NCBI GenBank assembly: GCA_030834695.1
Contig: JAUQXK010000041.1
Location: 1-53,084 of the forward strand
DNA: 53,084 nucleotides
Origin: Desulfobacterales bacterium
GTDB lineage: Bacteria > Desulfobacterota > Desulfobacteria > Desulfobacterales > SpSt-501
Direction of reading: 5' to 3'
Of this stretch, positions 46 through 36,404 are shown piece by piece. The notes under the pieces were generated by a model. The model worked only from the letters and a program-made list of their open reading frames with translations, was not told the DNA's origin and ran no database searches. The position numbers and the translations under genes were made by a program. Position 1 is the stretch's first letter, and each line of letters begins with the position of its first letter.

Positions 46-2157
46 TTATTGCGGCTTGTATCCCATGGGCAGTTTCTTGAAGCGGCCGCCGTGAATGATC
101 GGATCGCCTTTGTAGCCCAAGCCCTTGAAGTCGATGTAGTCGGTCTTTCCGATCAGGTGGCTGACGTCCCGGCCCTTGCCGGCCATGAAGCTGAAGTCGG
201 TGCCTTTCTGAGCGATCTTCTTGAAGTCCACGTTCTTGTTGTCCTGGTGGCAGCGGTTGCAGGTGAGCTCGCCCTTCAGGCTTTCGTGGCACTGCACGCA
301 GGAGAGCGCCATGTCGGCCGGCATCACCTCGTGCTCGATGCCCCAGTACATGCGAGTGTTGACCCACTTGTACTTGCCGCTGTACGCCAGATGAGCTGCC
401 TGCATGCCGGTGGTGTAGGCTTTCTGCCAGTCCAGGTGTTTCCAGTAGGCGGTCGTGTCTTCCTTGTTTTTGGGGAACAGGTGCGGCACCATGATGTGGC
501 GGTGTTCGAGATCCACTGCGTTGACGCCCTCCATAAACTTGAACGGTGAGATCTTGGAGCCGGGGTCCTTGATCGAGCCCACTGGCTCGGTCAGGTTGAG
601 GTAGGCCGTGTCGGGGTCCACCTTGTCGCCTAAGAGCACGCGCTTCATGGAGCCATTGTACCAGGTGTAGATCGGCTTGCCGGATTCGACCCAGACAAAC
701 TCGCCCTTCATCCAGTTGTAGTCCTCCATGCCGTACTTGTCCTTCTTGGGCTTGCGGCTCTTGTCACCGGCCTTGGACCAGTCCCAGGAAACCACCGTCG
801 GCTTGCATTTGGCATACACCGGCGAATGGCAGGTGTTGCAGGCGATGGTTTCGGCGTGTTTGTTCAGATGATGGATCAGTAACCCCTCGCCATAATGCGG
901 CTGTTCGCCGTGGCAGCGCTCGCAAGTGAAGCCGCCCTCGGACACCGGCACCGAGGTGCTGCGGCCGGCGATCTTGTGGTTGCGGGTGCGGTGGCATTCC
1001 GAACACTGAAAGTCATAGCCACCCATGTGGACGTCGCAGCTGCGCTCGGGGTCGAGCAGCTGGCGGGACATGTCCGCGTGCTTGACGGCCTCTCCGCCGC
1101 CGCCGTTGAAATGGCATTCGCCGCAGGTCATGCGGCTGGAGCGGCCCACACTCTTGGCCACCTGGACCAAATCCACCTTGGGGTCGGGCATGCCGGCCTC
1201 GGTCGGCACTTTCCTGTAGGTTCCGGTCCGGTCGTGGCAGACCAGGCAGTCGATCTTGGTCATGTCGGTAAAATCAAAGGTTTCGTCTCGATAGCCGTAT
1301 CCGGCGTGGCAACTGGTGCAACGAGCCTCGTTGCTGTGGATGCTCACTCAGAAATTGTTCACGGCCGAAGTTGCCTTGCCGTGCTCGACGTGCTTGCTGC
1401 GATTGAGGGTGTAGGGCGACGGTCCCTTCCACAGCCAGTGGGCGGTCTTGAGCATGTCCTCCCCGGCAGCCTTGTGGCAACGCAGGCACTCCTGGGTCAC
1501 CTGGGTCGGCTCGGGCTTTTCCGGCAGCTTCACCAGTTCCTTGTGGTCCGGCACGTTCTTGCGGTGGCAGCCCAGGCAGTCGGTCGGGCCCTTCTGCATC
1601 TCCTGGTGGCAGCCGGTGCACTGCTGGTGAAAGGCGGCTTTCAAACCGAGGCGTTCGGGCTGGTCCGAACGGAAGGCCTCTTGATGGCAGGCCGAACAGC
1701 GTGTGGTCTCCTTGGCCTTGGCATCCAGGGGTCGGCGATGATGGCAAAGCGCGCAGTCCTTGAGCTGGGACGCATGCTTGCTGTGCTTGAAGCGCACCGG
1801 GCCGTAGAGGTCCTCGGTCTTCTTGATGATGGGGCTGTCCAGCAGAAAATAGCTGTTGGTGATGTCTTTGATCCCCAGTCCGGTCTCCCGCAGCCGCATC
1901 TGCCGGCACAGATCGCACTCCTCCATGACGGCCTCGACGAATGGGACAAACTCCTGCGCCCGCTTCTTGGCGGCCTCCTGGTCCGGGGCGGTCCATGGTG
2001 TCGCGCTGGTTTGTGGCGGCGCCGGAATTTTCTCGGCGCCCTCGGCCGCCGCGACCGCCTCCGAAGGCGATGGGACGCCGCCTTGGAACCCGATCAGGCC
2101 GCCGATCGCCGCTATCGCCGTTAGAAGCGCAATGGCTAGTGACAACCGCTTGGTCAT
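46..2157 (-). CDS. Selenocysteine-containing multihaem cytochrome c, octahaem tetrathionate reductase (OTR) family; TGA at 1348-1350 read as Sec
   Basis: Reading through the TGA at codon 270 gives 703 residues. Residues ~1-27 form a signal peptide or anchor, so the protein is periplasmic. Four CXXCH motifs (CALCH, CSACH, CTGCH, CLGCH) make a c3/c7-like front module. Nine more follow, from CLRCH to CNRCH, thirteen in all. From CLRCH on the protein resembles the OTR family as I remember it, where the pattern is NNF-C followed by RCTSCH; here that Cys is the TGA (AVNNF-U-VSI). Frame and haem spacing continue unbroken. A 7-bp hairpin lies 18 bases after the TGA, and no ribosome-binding site precedes the next codon (GTG). 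The start at 2157 has AGGAGG upstream and overlaps the NrfD gene by ATGA, so the two are translationally coupled. The electrons probably pass between the quinone-linked NrfD/HybA partners and a periplasmic substrate, perhaps a sulfur oxyanion. The alternative is a gene split by a nonsense mutation. Confidence 0.82.
1318..1334 (-). promoter_or_regulatory. Candidate bacterial SECIS hairpin for Sec at 1348-1350
   Basis: The mRNA just after the UGA folds as GCAACGA-GGC-UCGUUGC: a perfect 7-bp stem with a GGC loop. The loop starts 20 bases after the UGA, inside the range known for bacterial SECIS elements, and has G in the first loop positions, as SelB recognition requires. For comparison, the E. 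coli fdhF loop (AGGUCU) begins 17 bases after its UGA. The hairpin lies within coding sequence for the next CXXCH region, as expected for an in-gene SECIS. Confidence 0.72.
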
Positions 2158-3359
2158 GCGGACACCTCCTGTCCTGGTCTGTTCAAGACCGGTAAATACG
2201 TTACGAGAAAGCGGTAGAGAAACATCAGACCGGCGATGAAACCGACGGTGATCAGAATCTCCGTAATCGACGGGAAGTAATAATTTTCGCTGACCGGCGG
2301 GCGGTAGCCGACGACGAACACGTTGACCCGGTTGAGCAGCACGCCGCCGACGATCAGCGTGCAGGCCGTGAACAGCCAGCGGCGCGAGCGGCGCACCGCG
2401 GGCGAAAGCAGCAAGACCCAGGGCACGATCACTCCGAAAATCATTTCCACCAAGAAAGAATTGGTCTGGGCCGTGCCGTCCAACAGATAGACGTAGGTGC
2501 CCCGAATCACCATGTCCCCGATTTTCAACGCGAGGTAGCTCCCCAGCAGAAAAATGGTGATGCGCGTCAGCGGCGAGAGGACCTGCATTTCCGGGTCGAG
2601 CTTCAGCGAGGTGGTGGCGAGCGTGGTTTCGAACACCACCATGGGGTAGCCGACCGCGACGGCCGAGGTCAGAAACAAGAGCGGTAAAATCGGCGTGTAC
2701 CAGAGCGGGTGCACTTTGGTGGGTGCAATCAGCATCAGCGAGCCCAGGCTCGACTGGTGCATGCAGGAGAGCACGACACCGGCGATGATGAAGAGCCACA
2801 TCAGTTTGGAGAGGAGCGTGTCGGCCAGGCTGAGCAGAGTCTCCGCCACCCCGTTGAGGGCGGAGAGCAGCCCGGGCAGGTTCACGCGCCCCTTGAAGCG
2901 CTCCACCACGATGGGGATGAATTCGATGTAGAGCACGTTCAGGTAAAACATCACGCACATGGCCACTTCGAACAAAACCGAATGAAAGTTCCAGTAGACC
3001 ATCGGCTTCCAAATGGCCCAGGAGCGGCCGATGTCCACGATCAAACCCAGAACGACAAAAGTGTACCCCAGCATGGCGGTCAGAAGGGCCGGCCGTGCGA
3101 CGGGCTCATAATAGTGGCGGCCGAGGATGTGCGCCAGGAAGGCGGTGGTGAAGCCGCCGGCGGCGAGGGCCACGCCCGAAGCGACATCCACCCCGATCCA
3201 AATCCCCCAAGGGCGGGCGGTGCTCAGGTTGGACACGTAGCCGATGCCGCCGATGAATCGTGCCAGCACCGCTGCGGCACCGGCAGCCATTAGAATCGCC
3301 AGCACCAGAACTCCGGGGCTCCAGAACTTCGCCCGCATCGGGGCGGCATGGGCGCTCAT
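2154..3359 (-). CDS. NrfD/HybB-family integral membrane subunit
   Basis: A 401-residue polytopic protein with about ten hydrophobic segments, spread from residue ~15 to the C-terminus. Its length and pattern fit HybB-type members of the NrfD/PsrC family, which bind menaquinone in the cytoplasmic membrane and pair with a periplasmic four-cluster Fe-S protein. Here that partner is the upstream HybA-like gene. AAGGAGG precedes the start, and the ATG overlaps the stop of the upstream gene by ATGA; the same overlap links it to the cytochrome downstream. All three products are therefore likely made in fixed proportion and form a membrane complex that exchanges electrons between the quinone pool and the multihaem cytochrome. 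The direction of electron flow cannot be read from the sequence. Confidence 0.9.
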
Positions 3360-4276
3360 GGTTGTCCTCCTTTTTCACGGGTGTCGCGGTCGCCCTTGTT
3401 GCGGAAGGCCCACATGACGCCGCTCAGCATGCCGAAGAGCACGATCGGCGACCACATGTAGCTGAACAGGGAGCTCTGAATCGACTCGGCCAGCTGAGTC
3501 AGGGGCCGGTGCGGCACGTCGATGAAGCCGACCCGGTCGAAGGGCACCCCGGAAAGGTACAGCCAGGACGTCCCTCCGGCCTCGTGCTCACCGTAGACGC
3601 GGTCGACGTAACTGGCAGGGTTGCTCTTGATCCTGTTTCTGGCGATCTTCAATAGCGTACTGCGGCGGCCGAAGGTAATGGCTTCGACCGGGCAAATTTC
3701 CGCGCAGCCAGGCCGTTTGCCCTCCTTCTCGACCCGCTCGTAGCAGAAGGTGCACTTCATCACGCGCGGGGTGATCGGATCGCGGTATTCGTAGGCCGGA
3801 ATTTCGAACGGGCAGGCCACCATGCAGTAGCGGCAGCCGATGCATTTGGTCACATCGTAGTGCACGGCCCCGTTTTCCTTCTTGGTCAATGCGCCCACGA
3901 TGCACGCCGAGGCGCAGGCCGGATCCTGGCAGTGCATGCACTGGACCTTCACGAAGGTGGGAACGAGCTGATCGCGCTCGTCCCGCCGACCCGGGTAGTA
4001 GCGGTTGATCACTGTATAGGTGCGTTCGTCCGGCCGGCGCTTCTTGTCCAGTACGGTCAGGTCGTCGAAGGGCTGCTCGGGCGCGGGCAGGCGGTTGACC
4101 GTCTGACAGCCCTGCTCGCATTTGCGGCAGCCGATGCAGCGAGTGAGATCGACCAGGCACCCCTGGGGATCCGCCGGTGCCCGCGACTGCCACGCCTCGG
4201 CAGGGCGGGTGGACGCAGCGACGCCCGCTCCTGCAGCTCCCGCCACCTTGAAAAACCCTCGTCGGCTCAATTGCAT
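3356..4276 (-). CDS. HybA-like periplasmic four-cluster ferredoxin subunit with Tat signal and C-terminal anchor
   Basis: 306 residues from the ATG at 4276, which has AAGGGAG eight bases upstream; a longer reading to 4348 lacks this support and would bury the signal. Residues 4-10 are a twin-arginine motif (SRRGFFK) followed by a hydrophobic stretch. Four Cys groups follow ([39 protein letters not shown] plus CAEIC), the set that holds four [4Fe-4S] clusters in HybA/NrfC/DmsB-type proteins. A hydrophobic segment near residues 270-292 would anchor it beside the NrfD partner. It is the electron wire between the membrane quinone site and the multihaem cytochrome. It is second in the operon, after the TusA-like gene, and overlaps the next gene. 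Confidence 0.9.
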
Positions 4277-4301
4277 CTGAATTCTCCCTTGCTTTGCCTT
4301 G

Positions 4302-4565
4302 TCATTCGGTTGCGCCTTGGATCGAGTCAGTCTCTGCGTGTCGATCAATCTTCAGCCGGTGCACGCTGAGCCGGTAGCTCCGGGAACCGCGGTGCTGCCG
4401 GAACCTGAGATCCGGGCGGCTGTTGATCAGAAGAACGATATTGTCGGCCACATCGGGATCGGATACGATAATGGTCAGATCTTCTCCCGGTTCAAGCCGC
4501 GTGAGTGCCTCGTTGCATTGGATCACGCAGACCGGCCAAACTATATCTCTTAGATTGATTTCCAT
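4302..4565 (-). CDS. TusA/SirA-fold small protein with altered Cys motif
   Basis: 87 residues from the ATG at 4565, preceded by GGAGGGG; an in-frame ATG five codons upstream lies before that ribosome-binding site and is less likely. The N-terminal pattern (beta strand MEINLRD, then [12 protein letters not shown], then a second strand and helix) matches the TusA/SirA/YedF fold. The usual first CPxP cysteine is replaced by Trp, with Cys three and seven residues further on. Canonical TusA relays sulfane sulfur through that cysteine, so classical sulfur transfer is doubtful here, although a shifted Cys could serve. It is the first gene of the cytochrome operon, directly behind the sigma-54 promoter, which links the operon to sulfur chemistry or to a partner-binding role. 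Confidence 0.72.
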
Positions 4566-4582
4566 CGGACTCCCCTCCATTC

Positions 4583-4598
4583 AGCAATAAACCTGCCA
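4583..4598 (-). promoter_or_regulatory. Sigma-54 promoter of the TusA/HybAB/selenocytochrome operon
   Basis: On the minus strand the sequence is TGGCAGGTTTATTGCT, with the invariant GG and GC ten bases apart as in the -24/-12 consensus TGGCACG-N4-TTGCW. It would start transcription near 4572, just ahead of the TusA-like gene. A sigma-54 activator gene is divergent, and palindromes lie 80-140 bases upstream. Confidence 0.85.
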
Positions 4599-4776: not shown

Positions 4777-6156
4777 ATGAAAGACACTGACTTAAGCCAG
4801 CACTGGCACCGGATCCTCAATACCATGAACGAAGGGCTCATGCTGGTCGGCCCCGAGGGCTCCATCCTGATGGTCAACCGGTCTTTCGAGCAGCTTACCG
4901 GGTACAGTTCCGAAGAGGTCATCGGGCGCTCCTGCAAACTGATCGGATGCGACGCCTGCGAATCGATGCTCACCTGCGACGATATGGGATGGTGCAAGCT
5001 TTTTCATCCGGATCAGGTGGAATTGCGCCGCTGTCGATGCGGCATCATCCGCAAGGACGGAAGCCTACTGCCAGCCCTCAAGAATGCATCCGTGCTGAGG
5101 GACGAGGCGGGGAACGTGATGGGTGCCGTGGAAACTATTACGGATCTCAGCGAAATTGACCGGCTGGACCAGAAGGTCGAAGTGCTGGCGCGCCAGCTGG
5201 GCGACTGCGAGCACCTCGGGATCATCGGGGCGTCCCCCGCCATGAAGAAGGTGTTTCAGCTCATTGAAAGGGCGGCCCACAGCGATTCGCCCATCATTAT
5301 TTTCGGCGAGAGCGGCACCGGCAAAGAACTCGTGGCAAGGGCCATCCATGAGCAGGGCCGGAGAAAAAGCGGCCCCTACGTGCAGCTCAATTGCGCCGCC
5401 TTGAATGCCGACCTGCTGGAGAGCGAACTGTTCGGCCACATTAAAGGTGCCTTCACCGGAGCCTATCGGCACCGCATGGGACGCTTCGAGGCGGCCCATG
5501 GGGGGGACCTCTTTTTGGACGAGATCGGCGACATTCCGCTCTCCGTCCAGGTGAAACTCTTAAGGGTTCTGGAAACCCAGCAGTTCGAACGGGTCGGCGA
5601 CCACCACCCGGTCAGCGTCGATGTGCGCATCATCTCGGCCACCAATAAAAATCTGCTGGAGATGATTGCCCAAAAGCAGTTCCGCGAAGACCTGTTCTTC
5701 CGCATCAACGTGATTCCCATCTACCTGCCGCCGCTGCGCCAGCGCAAGGAAGACCTTCCCATTCTTGTCAGCAGCTTCATCCAGCGCCTGCAGCGCATCA
5801 CCGGCAAGGGCATCAACGGGTTGACCCCGAGCGCCCTGATGCTGTTTATGGATTATTCCTGGCCGGGAAACGTGCGCGAGTTGAAAAGCGTGCTCGAGTA
5901 TGCGTTCGTCATCGCCGAATCCGGTTTGGTCGACGTCGAGCATTTGCCCCCGCAATTTGCTCAAGGCGACGCAGCGGCGGCGCGCGGCATGTCCCCGGCC
6001 GACGGCTCCACGGAAAAAACCGCGCTGATCGAGGCCCTGCGCCGGACCAACGGCAACCAAACCCAGGCGGCCCGCCTGCTCGGCATCAACCGGGTCACGG
6101 TTTGGAACCGCATGCGCAAGTACGGCGTTGATCTAAAAAAAGTACTGCAAGCATAA
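4777..6156 (+). CDS. Sigma-54-dependent transcriptional activator with Cys-rich PAS domain
   Basis: 459 residues: an N-terminal PAS domain (~5-125), an AAA+ domain (~150-380) with Walker A GESGTGKE near residue 177 and the sigma-54 contact loop GAFTGA near 224, and a C-terminal Fis-type helix-turn-helix (~415-455). It has no receiver domain, so the PAS domain itself is the likely sensor. Residues ~50-90 contain seven cysteines (within GRSCK, GCDAC, LTCDD, GWCKL, RRCRC), an arrangement that could bind a metal or Fe-S centre or respond to thiol oxidation. It is divergent from the selenocytochrome operon, whose sigma-54 promoter it most likely activates through the palindromes at 4680-4720. Confidence 0.93.
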   Translation: MKDTDLSQHWHRILNTMNEGLMLVGPEGSILMVNRSFEQLTGYSSEEVIGRSCKLIGCDACESMLTCDDMGWCKLFHPDQVELRRCRCGIIRKDGSLLPALKNASVLRDEAGNVMGAVETITDLSEIDRLDQKVEVLARQLGDCEHLGIIGASPAMKKVFQLIERAAHSDSPIIIFGESGTGKELVARAIHEQGRRKSGPYVQLNCAALNADLLESELFGHIKGAFTGAYRHRMGRFEAAHGGDLFLDEIGDIPLSVQVKLLRVLETQQFERVGDHHPVSVDVRIISATNKNLLEMIAQKQFREDLFFRINVIPIYLPPLRQRKEDLPILVSSFIQRLQRITGKGINGLTPSALMLFMDYSWPGNVRELKSVLEYAFVIAESGLVDVEHLPPQFAQGDAAAARGMSPADGSTEKTALIEALRRTNGNQTQAARLLGINRVTVWNRMRKYGVDLKKVLQA

Positions 6157-8769: not shown

Positions 8770-10089
8770 TCACTTGCCGCTTTCCGGGTGAAACACGTTG
8801 ATTTCTCTCAAATCTTCACCCAGGTAAGTCCGTTCGTTCGGGCCGAGAACGCCCAACGCAAGGCAAATAAGGGTCCACAGGTGAACGACAGGGTACCCGC
8901 CGCCGAAATGCTCGCTCAATTCATGGATCTGGGCATGGCAGTTGTGGCAGCCTGCGATGCAGTAGCCCGCTCCGGTGGCCTTGATCTGTTCGTCCTTCAG
9001 CTTGCCGAAGGCCAGACGCTGCTCCTTGAAGCCGGACTGCAGGAAACCGCCTCCCCCGCCGCAGCAGTAGTTGTTGGAGCGGTTCGGCTGCATGTCGATG
9101 AAGTTCTCTTCGCCGACCACCGCTTTGACCACATAGCGCAGGTCTTCGGCGATCGGGTCCCCGTAGGCCTTTCTAACGATCTGACAGGGGTCCTGCACGG
9201 TGAACTTGATCTTCAGGTCCCGGTTCCAGTCGGAGTTGACCTTGAGCCGTCCCTCGCGGATCCACTTGGCGTAGTATTCATAGATGTTCTTGACCACGAA
9301 CTTGTGCTCGATGTTGAACTTTTTCAGTCCCTCCAGGACCGAGAAGGTGACGTGCCCTCACTCGGTGTTGAGAAAGACCTTGCACCCCAGTTCGTCCGCC
9401 TGTTGGGCCGCCGTGCTGGTTATATGTTTCCAGGCTTCGCTGTCGCCGAGGAACATGCAGTAGTTCTCCCCGCCCCAGCCCTTGGATCCATACGTCCAGT
9501 CAACCCCGGCCAGGTGCAGGATTTTCCACAAGGGTACCATTTCATCCGGTTCCGTAACCGGCTCTCTTGAATTTTGATTCAAAATGAATTCGGCACCGAC
9601 TTTATCAACGGGGGCCTGCATCTCTGCGAATTCCGGCTGGGCTTCCCGGTATTCCTCCAGCACATCCCCCACGACAAATTCGAAATCTTCAGGGGATGCG
9701 CCCATGGCGCTGCAGCTGGCGTTGCGGAGTGCCATGTCGCAGGAGCCCAAGATGCCCTTGGGCCGCTTTTCCCGGGGCCAGCTGGCACGCGCGTTGTAGA
9801 CCAGCCGCGGGATGTCGATTTTCATGGGGCAGACATAAATGCAGCGCTGGCACTGGGTGCACATCCACACCCAATTGGAGCTCAGGATCTCCTCGTCCAT
9901 GCCGAGTGCGGCCATGCGCAGGAACTTCCGCGGGTCCATGCCCTCCAGCCCCGTGGCCGGACAGCCCGAGGAGCAGGCCCCGCAGGTCAGGCATAGGTTC
10001 AAGTTGCCGCCGTCCGGCAGCAGCTGCCTGACCTGGTCCATGAAGGTCGATCGCTTTTTCCCTCCCAACCGAATCACCGTTTCATCCAT
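8770..10089 (-). CDS. Selenocysteine-containing HdrD-like Fe-S oxidoreductase (two-cluster plus CCG domain); TGA at 9358-9360 read as Sec
   Basis: 439 residues if codon 244 (TGA) is Sec. The start at 10089 has GAAGGAGG. Residues ~30-90 hold an HdrC-type pair of cluster motifs (CLTCGACSSGCP, CTQCQRCIYVCP). The second half is HdrB/HdrD-like, with DPCQ, then YCCGGGGGF and CIAGCHNCH, a complete CCG half-domain that in heterodisulfide reductase binds a non-cubane [4Fe-4S] cluster. Just before it the frame reads LNTE-U-GHVT, where relatives have ECGH. The frame continues for 195 codons after the TGA with the catalytic cysteines all on the far side, so termination would leave half an enzyme. A hairpin with a GGU loop start follows. 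It is second in a sigma-54-driven operon after the PilZ gene. The partner and substrate are unknown; disulfide or persulfide reduction is plausible. Confidence 0.87.
9329..9347 (-). promoter_or_regulatory. Candidate SECIS hairpin for Sec at 9358-9360
   Basis: After the UGA, UUCUC (9345-9341) can pair with GAGGG (9333-9329) around the loop GGUCCUG. The loop starts 18 bases downstream of the UGA, and its GGUC resembles the E. coli fdhF loop AGGUCU. An alternative pairing, CCUUC with GGAGG, shares the same loop core. The stem includes G-U pairs and is weaker than the one at 1318. Confidence 0.6.
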
Positions 10090-35981: not shown

Positions 35982-36404
35982 TCAAATTACCATTTTCAAC
36001 CTGGCGGCGCTGGGCTCCAGGCGTTTGATCTGCTCCGTCATCTCCCGCATGATCTCGGCGAACCGGATGCCGTCGCTGGCGCCGATCCACGTCAGGCGCA
36101 GGCGCTGCGGTTCAAAGCCGAACTGCTCGATGATCTCTTTAAGCAGTTTGATCCGCCGGCGGGCCTTGTAGTTCCCATTGATGTAGTGGCAATCACCGGG
36201 ATTGCACCCGCTGACCAGAACGCCGTCCGCGCCGTCCAGCAGCGCCTTGATCACGTATTTCGGATCGACCATGCCGGTGCACATGACCCGGACGATCCGG
36301 ATGTTGGGCGGGTAGGCCAGGCGGGAGGTGCCGGCCAGGTCAGCGGCCGTATAGGTACACCAGTTGCAGAAGAAGGCCACAATGGTGGGTTCGAAATCGC
36401 TCAT
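35982..36404 (-). CDS. flpD: FlpD/MvhD-type [2Fe-2S] electron-transfer subunit
   Basis: 140 residues from the ATG at 36404 (AAAGGAGCC upstream); a longer frame inside the HdrA gene is not used. Conserved cysteines: FFCNWCTY near the start, VMCTGMVDPKY, and SGCNPGDCHYINGN. This protein links HdrA to hydrogenase, formate dehydrogenase or NADH-oxidising partners in HdrABC-MvhADG and HdrABC-Flox systems. Positions that are Sec in some homologues are Cys here. It sits 25 bases after hdrA and ahead of the FdhB-like gene, consistent with a FlpD bridge between them. Confidence 0.93.
   Translation of the reverse strand: MSDFEPTIVAFFCNWCTYTAADLAGTSRLAYPPNIRIVRVMCTGMVDPKYVIKALLDGADGVLVSGCNPGDCHYINGNYKARRRIKLLKEIIEQFGFEPQRLRLTWIGASDGIRFAEIMREMTEQIKRLEPSAARLKMVI

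Follow-up and report, generated by a model that had tools for sequence, protein, structure and literature searches.

A probable selenocysteine at the conserved NNFC column of an OTR-family multihaem cytochrome c, with candidate SelB hairpins beside it

The cytochrome gene and its neighbours

The window analysed here, 53,084 nucleotides in length, is a whole contig from the draft genome of a Desulfobacterales bacterium (149 contigs, estimated contamination 4.96%). At its very end lies a gene on the minus strand (2157-46) whose translation yields a 703-residue periplasmic cytochrome c with a sole internal stop, the TGA at 1350-1348. An earlier, sequence-only reading had given the region as 1318-2157 without a strand; this interval reaches from where the hairpin described below ends to where the gene starts. 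The principal features are as follows:

46..2157, minus strand: cytochrome c of the octaheme tetrathionate reductase (OTR) family, 703 aa, probably containing selenocysteine (Sec) (translation, domain profiles, alignment with 1SP3, positions of CXXCH motifs)
1081..1083, minus strand: Lys359, candidate axial ligand of haem 2 (alignment column)
1306..1320, minus strand: CTSCH at residues 280-284, the second haem motif within the OTR domain and equivalent of catalytic haem 2 (alignment)
1318..1334, minus strand: SECIS-like hairpin of type A, 7 bp with a GGC loop, or 6 bp with an AGGCU loop (folding, homologue comparison)
1348..1350, minus strand: UGA codon, predicted Sec270, aligned with the Cys of the OTR NNFC motif (alignments with 1SP3 and homologues)
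2154..3359, minus strand: NrfD/HybB/HmcC-like membrane subunit, quinone side (PF03916, 83 bits)
3356..4291, minus strand: HybA/HmcB-like periplasmic Fe-S subunit of the ferredoxin type, with a probable start near 4276 (HybA, 264.2 bits, cut-off 263)
4302..4580, minus strand: TusA-like small protein, start probably at 4565 (PF01206, 25.9 bits, below the cut-off of 28.6)
4583..4598, minus strand: candidate sigma-54 promoter TGGCAGG-N4-TTGCT ahead of the operon (pattern search)
4777..6156, plus strand: divergent regulator of the PAS/sigma-54-activator/Fis type (profile search)

As judged by eye, the N-terminus of the cytochrome resembles a signal peptide. The protein contains 13 CXXCH motifs, four of them in a c3-like domain that matches PF02085, eight in the OTR domain (positions 224, 280, 304, 345, 385, 412, 440 and 620) and one beyond both. 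With 494.1 bits against TIGR04315 (octaheme_Shew; curated cut-off 375), it belongs to this family, and it aligns with the OTR of Shewanella oneidensis (PDB 1SP3) at E 3e-112. The catalytic haem of OTR is haem 2, which is described as Lys-ligated (PMC11024163). Going by the alignment, Lys359 is likely to be the structural ligand of this haem, and residue 270, ten positions before the haem-2 CXXCH, would touch the haem-2 site.

The nearest named relatives are Desulfobacterales records, with values of 93% and 87% for two contigs from isolate Prado118. The gene is patchy in its distribution, since at E 1e-150 no homologue turned up in five of the six genomes of the same genus that were searched. 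Two further OTR-like paralogues are found in the source genome (L002 on contig C30 and L003 on contig C106), both of them Cys forms, the former adjoining a b561-type cytochrome gene.

The active-site motif of TusA proteins is CPxP; in the TusA-like protein of the window, WPVC seemingly takes its place. The sigma-54 promoter candidate owes its support to its place, because the pattern matches the window 11 times, against 10.2 matches expected. A candidate at this place was found in the window and in two of the 10 relatives examined, and a second, differently written sigma-54 pattern put a promoter here in three of 11 loci, all from the nearest clade of the window. The divergent PAS/sigma-54 activator is a possible regulator of the operon.

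A UGA codon at the column of the NNFC cysteine

To obtain homologues, 395 genomes of the phylum were searched at E 1e-60, with at most two candidates scored per genome, which gave matches in 69 of them; a scan of the contigs of named genomes gave 26 loci. After removal of L001, a duplicate of the window, and of L065 and L071, fragments that do not cover the relevant column, the 104 aligned rows were reduced to 101, all different from each other. When one 60-base stretch was compared per locus, it was shared only between L047 and L048. The Cys, Cys and His residues of each OTR-domain CXXCH are kept in all covering rows (100-103 of the 104), and the column of Lys359, which corresponds to the conserved Lys of the OTR family, holds Lys in 103/103 covering rows.

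The NNF-[TGA] of the window gene lies opposite the NNF-C of 1SP3, as the sequence-only reading had proposed. Among the 101 homologue rows, this column contains TGA in 47, Cys in 53 (38 TGC, 15 TGT) and Thr in one (ACT). Trp, another residue or a clean stop, which the same reading had named as evidence against itself, do not occur in close relatives; the single Thr belongs to a distant homologue. The Sec form is present in 30 of the 69 matched genomes. Its rows include the cultured Desulfosarcina widdelii, D. alkanivorans and D. cetonica, and the TGA also occupies the column in two complete chromosomes, those of D. widdelii strain PP31 (L051) and D. alkanivorans strain PL12 (L053). These two species share the hairpin of the window as well, and in D. 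widdelii the sequence around the predicted Sec reads ATVATNNF-Sec-VSIISNEAR. An error of sequencing or assembly, or a pseudogene whose frame is broken by a normal nonsense codon, might be suspected in a draft, partly contaminated assembly with the gene at a contig end, but this explanation is refuted by the TGA in the same column of 46 other rows, all differing (L047 and L048 are nearly alike) and some from complete chromosomes, as well as by the otherwise open frame of the window gene, and we regard it as practically eliminated.

The Thr homologue, L029 from genome G293, reads NNTT in a frame that also holds an NrfD-like part, and it suggests that this position can dispense with both Cys and Sec. 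A similar arrangement recurs in L025-L029 and L066, in which an NrfD-like membrane protein and the OTR cytochrome are joined in one frame of about 1,000 residues.

If the TGA were a true stop, the locus would encode a five-haem protein, followed by a separate cytochrome that begins at the GTG directly after the TGA. Five CXXCH motifs do precede residue 270, but the downstream part shows neither a signal peptide nor a ribosome-binding site by eye, with no purine-rich stretch ahead of the GTG, in agreement with the earlier assessment of this codon. Such a division would also sever OTR haem motif 1 from motifs 2-8, although 53 relatives run continuously through a Cys, and in eight of the 20 rows with a type A hairpin the codon after the TGA is ATC, ATT or GTC rather than ATG or GTG. 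Two separate genes are thus very improbable, and the uninterrupted frame on both sides of the TGA, already pointed out by the sequence-only reading, extends through the whole of 2157-46.

The source genome has the equipment to read the codon as Sec. The selA/selB/selC/selD set, whose presence had been suggested as a check, is complete, with SelA (615 bits), SelB (375 bits), two SelD genes (contigs C65 and C5; L127 and L128), each with one internal TGA, and a tRNA-Sec with the anticodon UCA. The SelB gene supports the capacity of this genome for Sec decoding. Its presence hardly discriminates Sec from Cys forms, because 75 of 80 genomes have SelB: 28 of the 30 with a Sec form, 38 of the 39 whose listed matches include only Cys or Thr forms, and nine of the 11 without OTR. 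The two Sec-form genomes without SelB are assemblies of 610 and 370 contigs.

The source genome additionally contains a second, divergent SelB gene on contig C11 (L140, 4806-6342), which lies directly behind a second tRNA-Sec(UCA) and is cut by the contig end. Near second SelB genes of other genomes, ARAGORN called a tRNA-Sec(tca) in L131, L132, L135 and L139, and a 90-92-nt 'tRNA-Cys(gca)' beside the gene in L134 and about 1 kb upstream in L136, L137 and L138; no such tRNA was called by ARAGORN nearby in L133. These tRNAs bring to mind published recoding tRNAs of the selC* type.

A search of the window for long frames that continue on both sides of a TGA returned 29 candidates including the OTR gene, and four others were examined. 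The TGA codons at 35982, 34791 and 44541 look like ordinary gene ends, each followed by the next gene. The remaining one is a second selenoprotein candidate, encoded at 8770-10089 on the minus strand with a TGA at 9360-9358. This protein resembles the Fe-S (CCG) proteins HmcF, TmcB and DsrK but scores below the cut-offs of those families, and matches at E 1e-60 were found in 33 of 40 related genomes (its own included), many of them with one internal TGA. The fold of the 61 nt after the TGA is not unusual (z -1.5). Its context, TE-U-GH, fits the entry 'Fe-S oxidoreductase-like protein, UGH' in Table 1 of PMC13188914.

The UGA might alternatively be decoded as Trp, or as Cys by mis-decoding. Genome-level reassignment of UGA does occur in some bacteria, but the codon serves as an ordinary stop elsewhere in this genome (for example at the end of the 8770-10089 gene), which also has the complete Sec machinery; moreover, Trp is found in no row and 7-bp Watson-Crick hairpins are confined to UGA rows. 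We therefore give this possibility very little weight. Judging from these comparisons, UGA codon 270 is very probably translated as Sec in this OTR-family cytochrome.

Hairpins downstream of the UGA and the residues beside haem 2

The perfect 7-bp hairpin with a GGC loop that the sequence-only reading had described is indeed present (GCAACGA-GGC-UCGUUGC), although its first base is the 14th after the TGA, with 13 intervening nucleotides rather than 18. Its sequence occurs at only one place in the genome at up to two mismatches, and the fold energy of the 63 nt in the window is only moderately unusual (z -2.3). The same hairpin, designated type A, starts at base 14 after the UGA in 20 rows, including the window. 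The codons that form it, AAC GAG GCT CGT TGC, are identical in 19 of these rows, the exception being a TCT for GCT in the loop, and the codons beyond it vary.

The other 27 Sec rows have a different hairpin, type B (CUGGUGC-AGGU-GCACCAG), which starts at base 18 and is unchanged in 22 of them. In L032, both sides of its outer pair have changed (C-G to U-A); L089 and L102 contain one G-U pair, and L032, L033 and L035 have the loop AGUU. Hairpin B presumably resembles the signal of E. coli fdhF.

When all rows were scanned for perfect Watson-Crick stems that start at base 8-25 after the codon and enclose a loop of 3-8 bases, a stem of at least 7 bp was detected in 46 of the 47 Sec rows, and none of the 53 Cys rows had one of at least 6 bp. 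With G-U pairs allowed, all 47 Sec rows reach 7 bp and four of the 53 Cys rows reach at least 6. When synonymous codons were redrawn for the peptide downstream of the UGA in the window, 62 of 20,000 draws contained a stem of 7 bp or more. For one type B peptide (L112), the corresponding number was 4,721 of 20,000, indicating that the type B stem is favoured by the encoded peptide itself. A later test set of 58 closer genomes provided 16 new loci, or 13 after the removal of three copies of earlier loci; hairpin A was found at base 14 in 5/5 new Sec rows versus 0/8 new Cys rows. Both hairpins lie within about 40 nt of the UGA and are SECIS-like elements and putative targets of SelB. Together with the Cys/Sec column and the complete Sec machinery, they strongly support the Sec reading of this OTR-family cytochrome.

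Two positions ahead of the haem-2 CXXCH, 40 of the 53 Cys rows have Pro, as against none of the 47 Sec rows, which have Cys (27 rows, TGC), Ala (19 rows, GCT) or Ser (one row, TCT) instead. In the fused clade, the residue preceding that site is Trp in 15/16 Cys rows and Glu in 17/17 Sec rows, and the codon of this Glu falls in stem A. The hairpin thus appears to dictate the residue beside the haem-2 motif. For the extra Cys of type B, the RNA is a better explanation than a Sec-Cys redox pair, because type A needs no Cys there, and we infer that this residue is owed to the RNA. A test with independent pairs, relating Sec to the loss of Pro, could use four pairs on starred branches; across 200 random pairings, an average of three pointed in the expected direction, none in the opposite one and one showed no difference, numbers too small for significance.

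A quick tree was computed from the 101 rows, with the trait columns removed. It requires at least five changes between Sec and Cys, and the starred branches force four for the Cys group, with the Thr row uncounted. The two residues have therefore swapped places at least four to five times on this tree, in which deep placements are unsure because of eleven long end branches. Topologies that unite all Sec rows (p-AU 1e-80) or all type A rows (p-AU 2e-73) in one clade were rejected, each group having been named from the trait. A gain of Sec is favoured in the fused clade, since its 17 Sec rows group inside Cys rows; elsewhere, gain cannot be distinguished from loss.

It is tempting to go one step further and propose that Cys and Sec were exchanged repeatedly and that two different types of SelB hairpin, required within the coding sequence, rewrote the protein beside the active haem of OTR cytochromes, a reading to which these patterns incline us slightly. 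Type A would have turned Pro into Ala and, in the fused clade, also Trp into Glu, which we favour by a similarly narrow measure, and the same modest preference applies to type B, which would have turned Pro into Cys and thereby introduced the extra Cys eight positions past Sec. If true, this process would represent a natural example of an RNA signal that steers the evolution of an active site in a respiratory enzyme.

Predicted function and relation to known systems

Among the fetched loci of the fused clade, 11 of the 17 Sec rows and 15 of the 16 Cys rows include an NrfD-like frame. Five of the six Sec rows without this frame begin at or inside the cytochrome gene; the sixth, L057, has neither a HybA-like nor an NrfD-like gene in 6 kb of upstream DNA. 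A TusA-like gene (E 1e-5) is present in eight of the 11 fused Sec loci that have a HybA-like gene, the window included, and a sigma-54 activator in all 11 (in L050 as a fragment only). Three fused Cys loci with a HybA-like gene and several kilobases ahead of it (L060, L061 and L066) contain no TusA-like gene and no sigma-54 activator at that place. For the short forms, whose flanks differ and often extend no further than 1.5 kb, the locus includes a b561-type cytochrome gene in 26 of 30 Sec rows and 21 of 37 Cys rows. The NrfD-like and b561-type partners suggest that these cytochromes exchange electrons with the quinone pool.

These observations can be combined into a single scheme, in which SelB and tRNA-Sec would read UGA codon 270 as Sec, directed by the hairpin 13 nt downstream. 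Electrons would most likely come from menaquinol via the NrfD-like membrane subunit and the HybA-like Fe-S subunit and then travel along the four haems of the c3-like domain and the chain of OTR haems as far as haem 2, which would reduce a small sulfur (or nitrogen or selenium) oxyanion or an S-S compound, with the selenolate serving as a nucleophile or an electron-accepting group. As one explanation of the locus, a 13-haem OTR cytochrome with a hairpin-specified Sec270 and a menaquinol-linked reduction at haem 2 has, in our opinion, a high likelihood. Taken individually, the assignment of the protein as a reductase linked to the quinone pool is reasonably likely, as is a catalytic role of the Sec270 selenol, and the reduction of a sulfur compound is our best guess for the function.

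A different role of the protein, either as a conduit for electrons or in the oxidation of sulfur compounds, with the incorporated Sec protecting the site or tuning haem 2, is possible but less likely. OTR has been termed an enzyme of cryptic function (PMC11024163), the operon showed no additional catalytic subunit, and the Thr homologue suggests that Cys or Sec is not strictly required. However, no covering row deviates from haem motif 2 or the Lys, as expected for an enzyme, whereas MmcA, a relative that acts as a conduit, has lost both (PMC11024163).

In the scheme of a quinone-linked reductase, selenium chemistry would take place next to the catalytic c-type haem of a respiratory enzyme family that anaerobes use on an uncertain physiological substrate. 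The question 'why selenium?' is directly testable in this family, since Cys and Sec forms coexist, even within one genome (the Cys paralogues on C30 and C106). Another question posed by this arrangement is how cytochrome c maturation deals with a selenol in the vicinity of a haem-binding CXXCH.

Selenoproteins of this kind have been listed before. Table 1 of a May 2026 review (PMC13188914) contains TIGR04315, represented by WP_331457571.1, with one Sec, annotated in GenBank and without a motif, and it also lists the multihaem cytochrome ExtKL (NF040886), with one Sec. The Sec reading of a multihaem c-type cytochrome is supported, but the remark of the sequence-only reading that it knew of no description of such a combination does not stand. 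In the literature searched, TIGR04315 was named as a selenoprotein only in this review, and a fuller description may exist elsewhere; the terms cytochrome, tetrathionate and heme are absent from the main text of PMC5029168.

WP_331457571.1 and the window protein both belong to TIGR04315 by the curated cut-off and have one Sec each; the former appears in a single table row, without a motif or discussion. ExtKL likewise is a multihaem c-type cytochrome with one Sec, and NF040886 is absent from the five NCBIfam matches of the window protein at E 0.001. The closest structural reference, 1SP3, has the same order of eight CXXCH motifs, the NNF-Cys/Sec element, the Lys and the haem-2 motif, but the window protein differs from it by Sec in place of Cys, an N-terminal c3-like tetrahaem domain, a 13th CXXCH and the HybA- and NrfD-like partner genes. 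Like the Hmc and Hyb complexes (HmcA-B-C, HybA-B), the operon combines a multihaem cytochrome with a HybA/HmcB-like Fe-S subunit and an NrfD-like subunit. Unlike in Hmc, however, the cytochrome is an OTR rather than an HmcA, and the membrane subunit stays below the cut-off of the HybB type (NF008133). Membership in the Hmc complex was rejected, with 76.4 of 400 bits for HmcA, 359.8 of 420 for HmcB and 269.6 of 550 for HmcC. What was already known is the listing of the family as a selenoprotein; what is new is the position of the predicted Sec, the candidate hairpins, the apparent repeated switching, the 13-haem form and the putatively quinone-linked operon.
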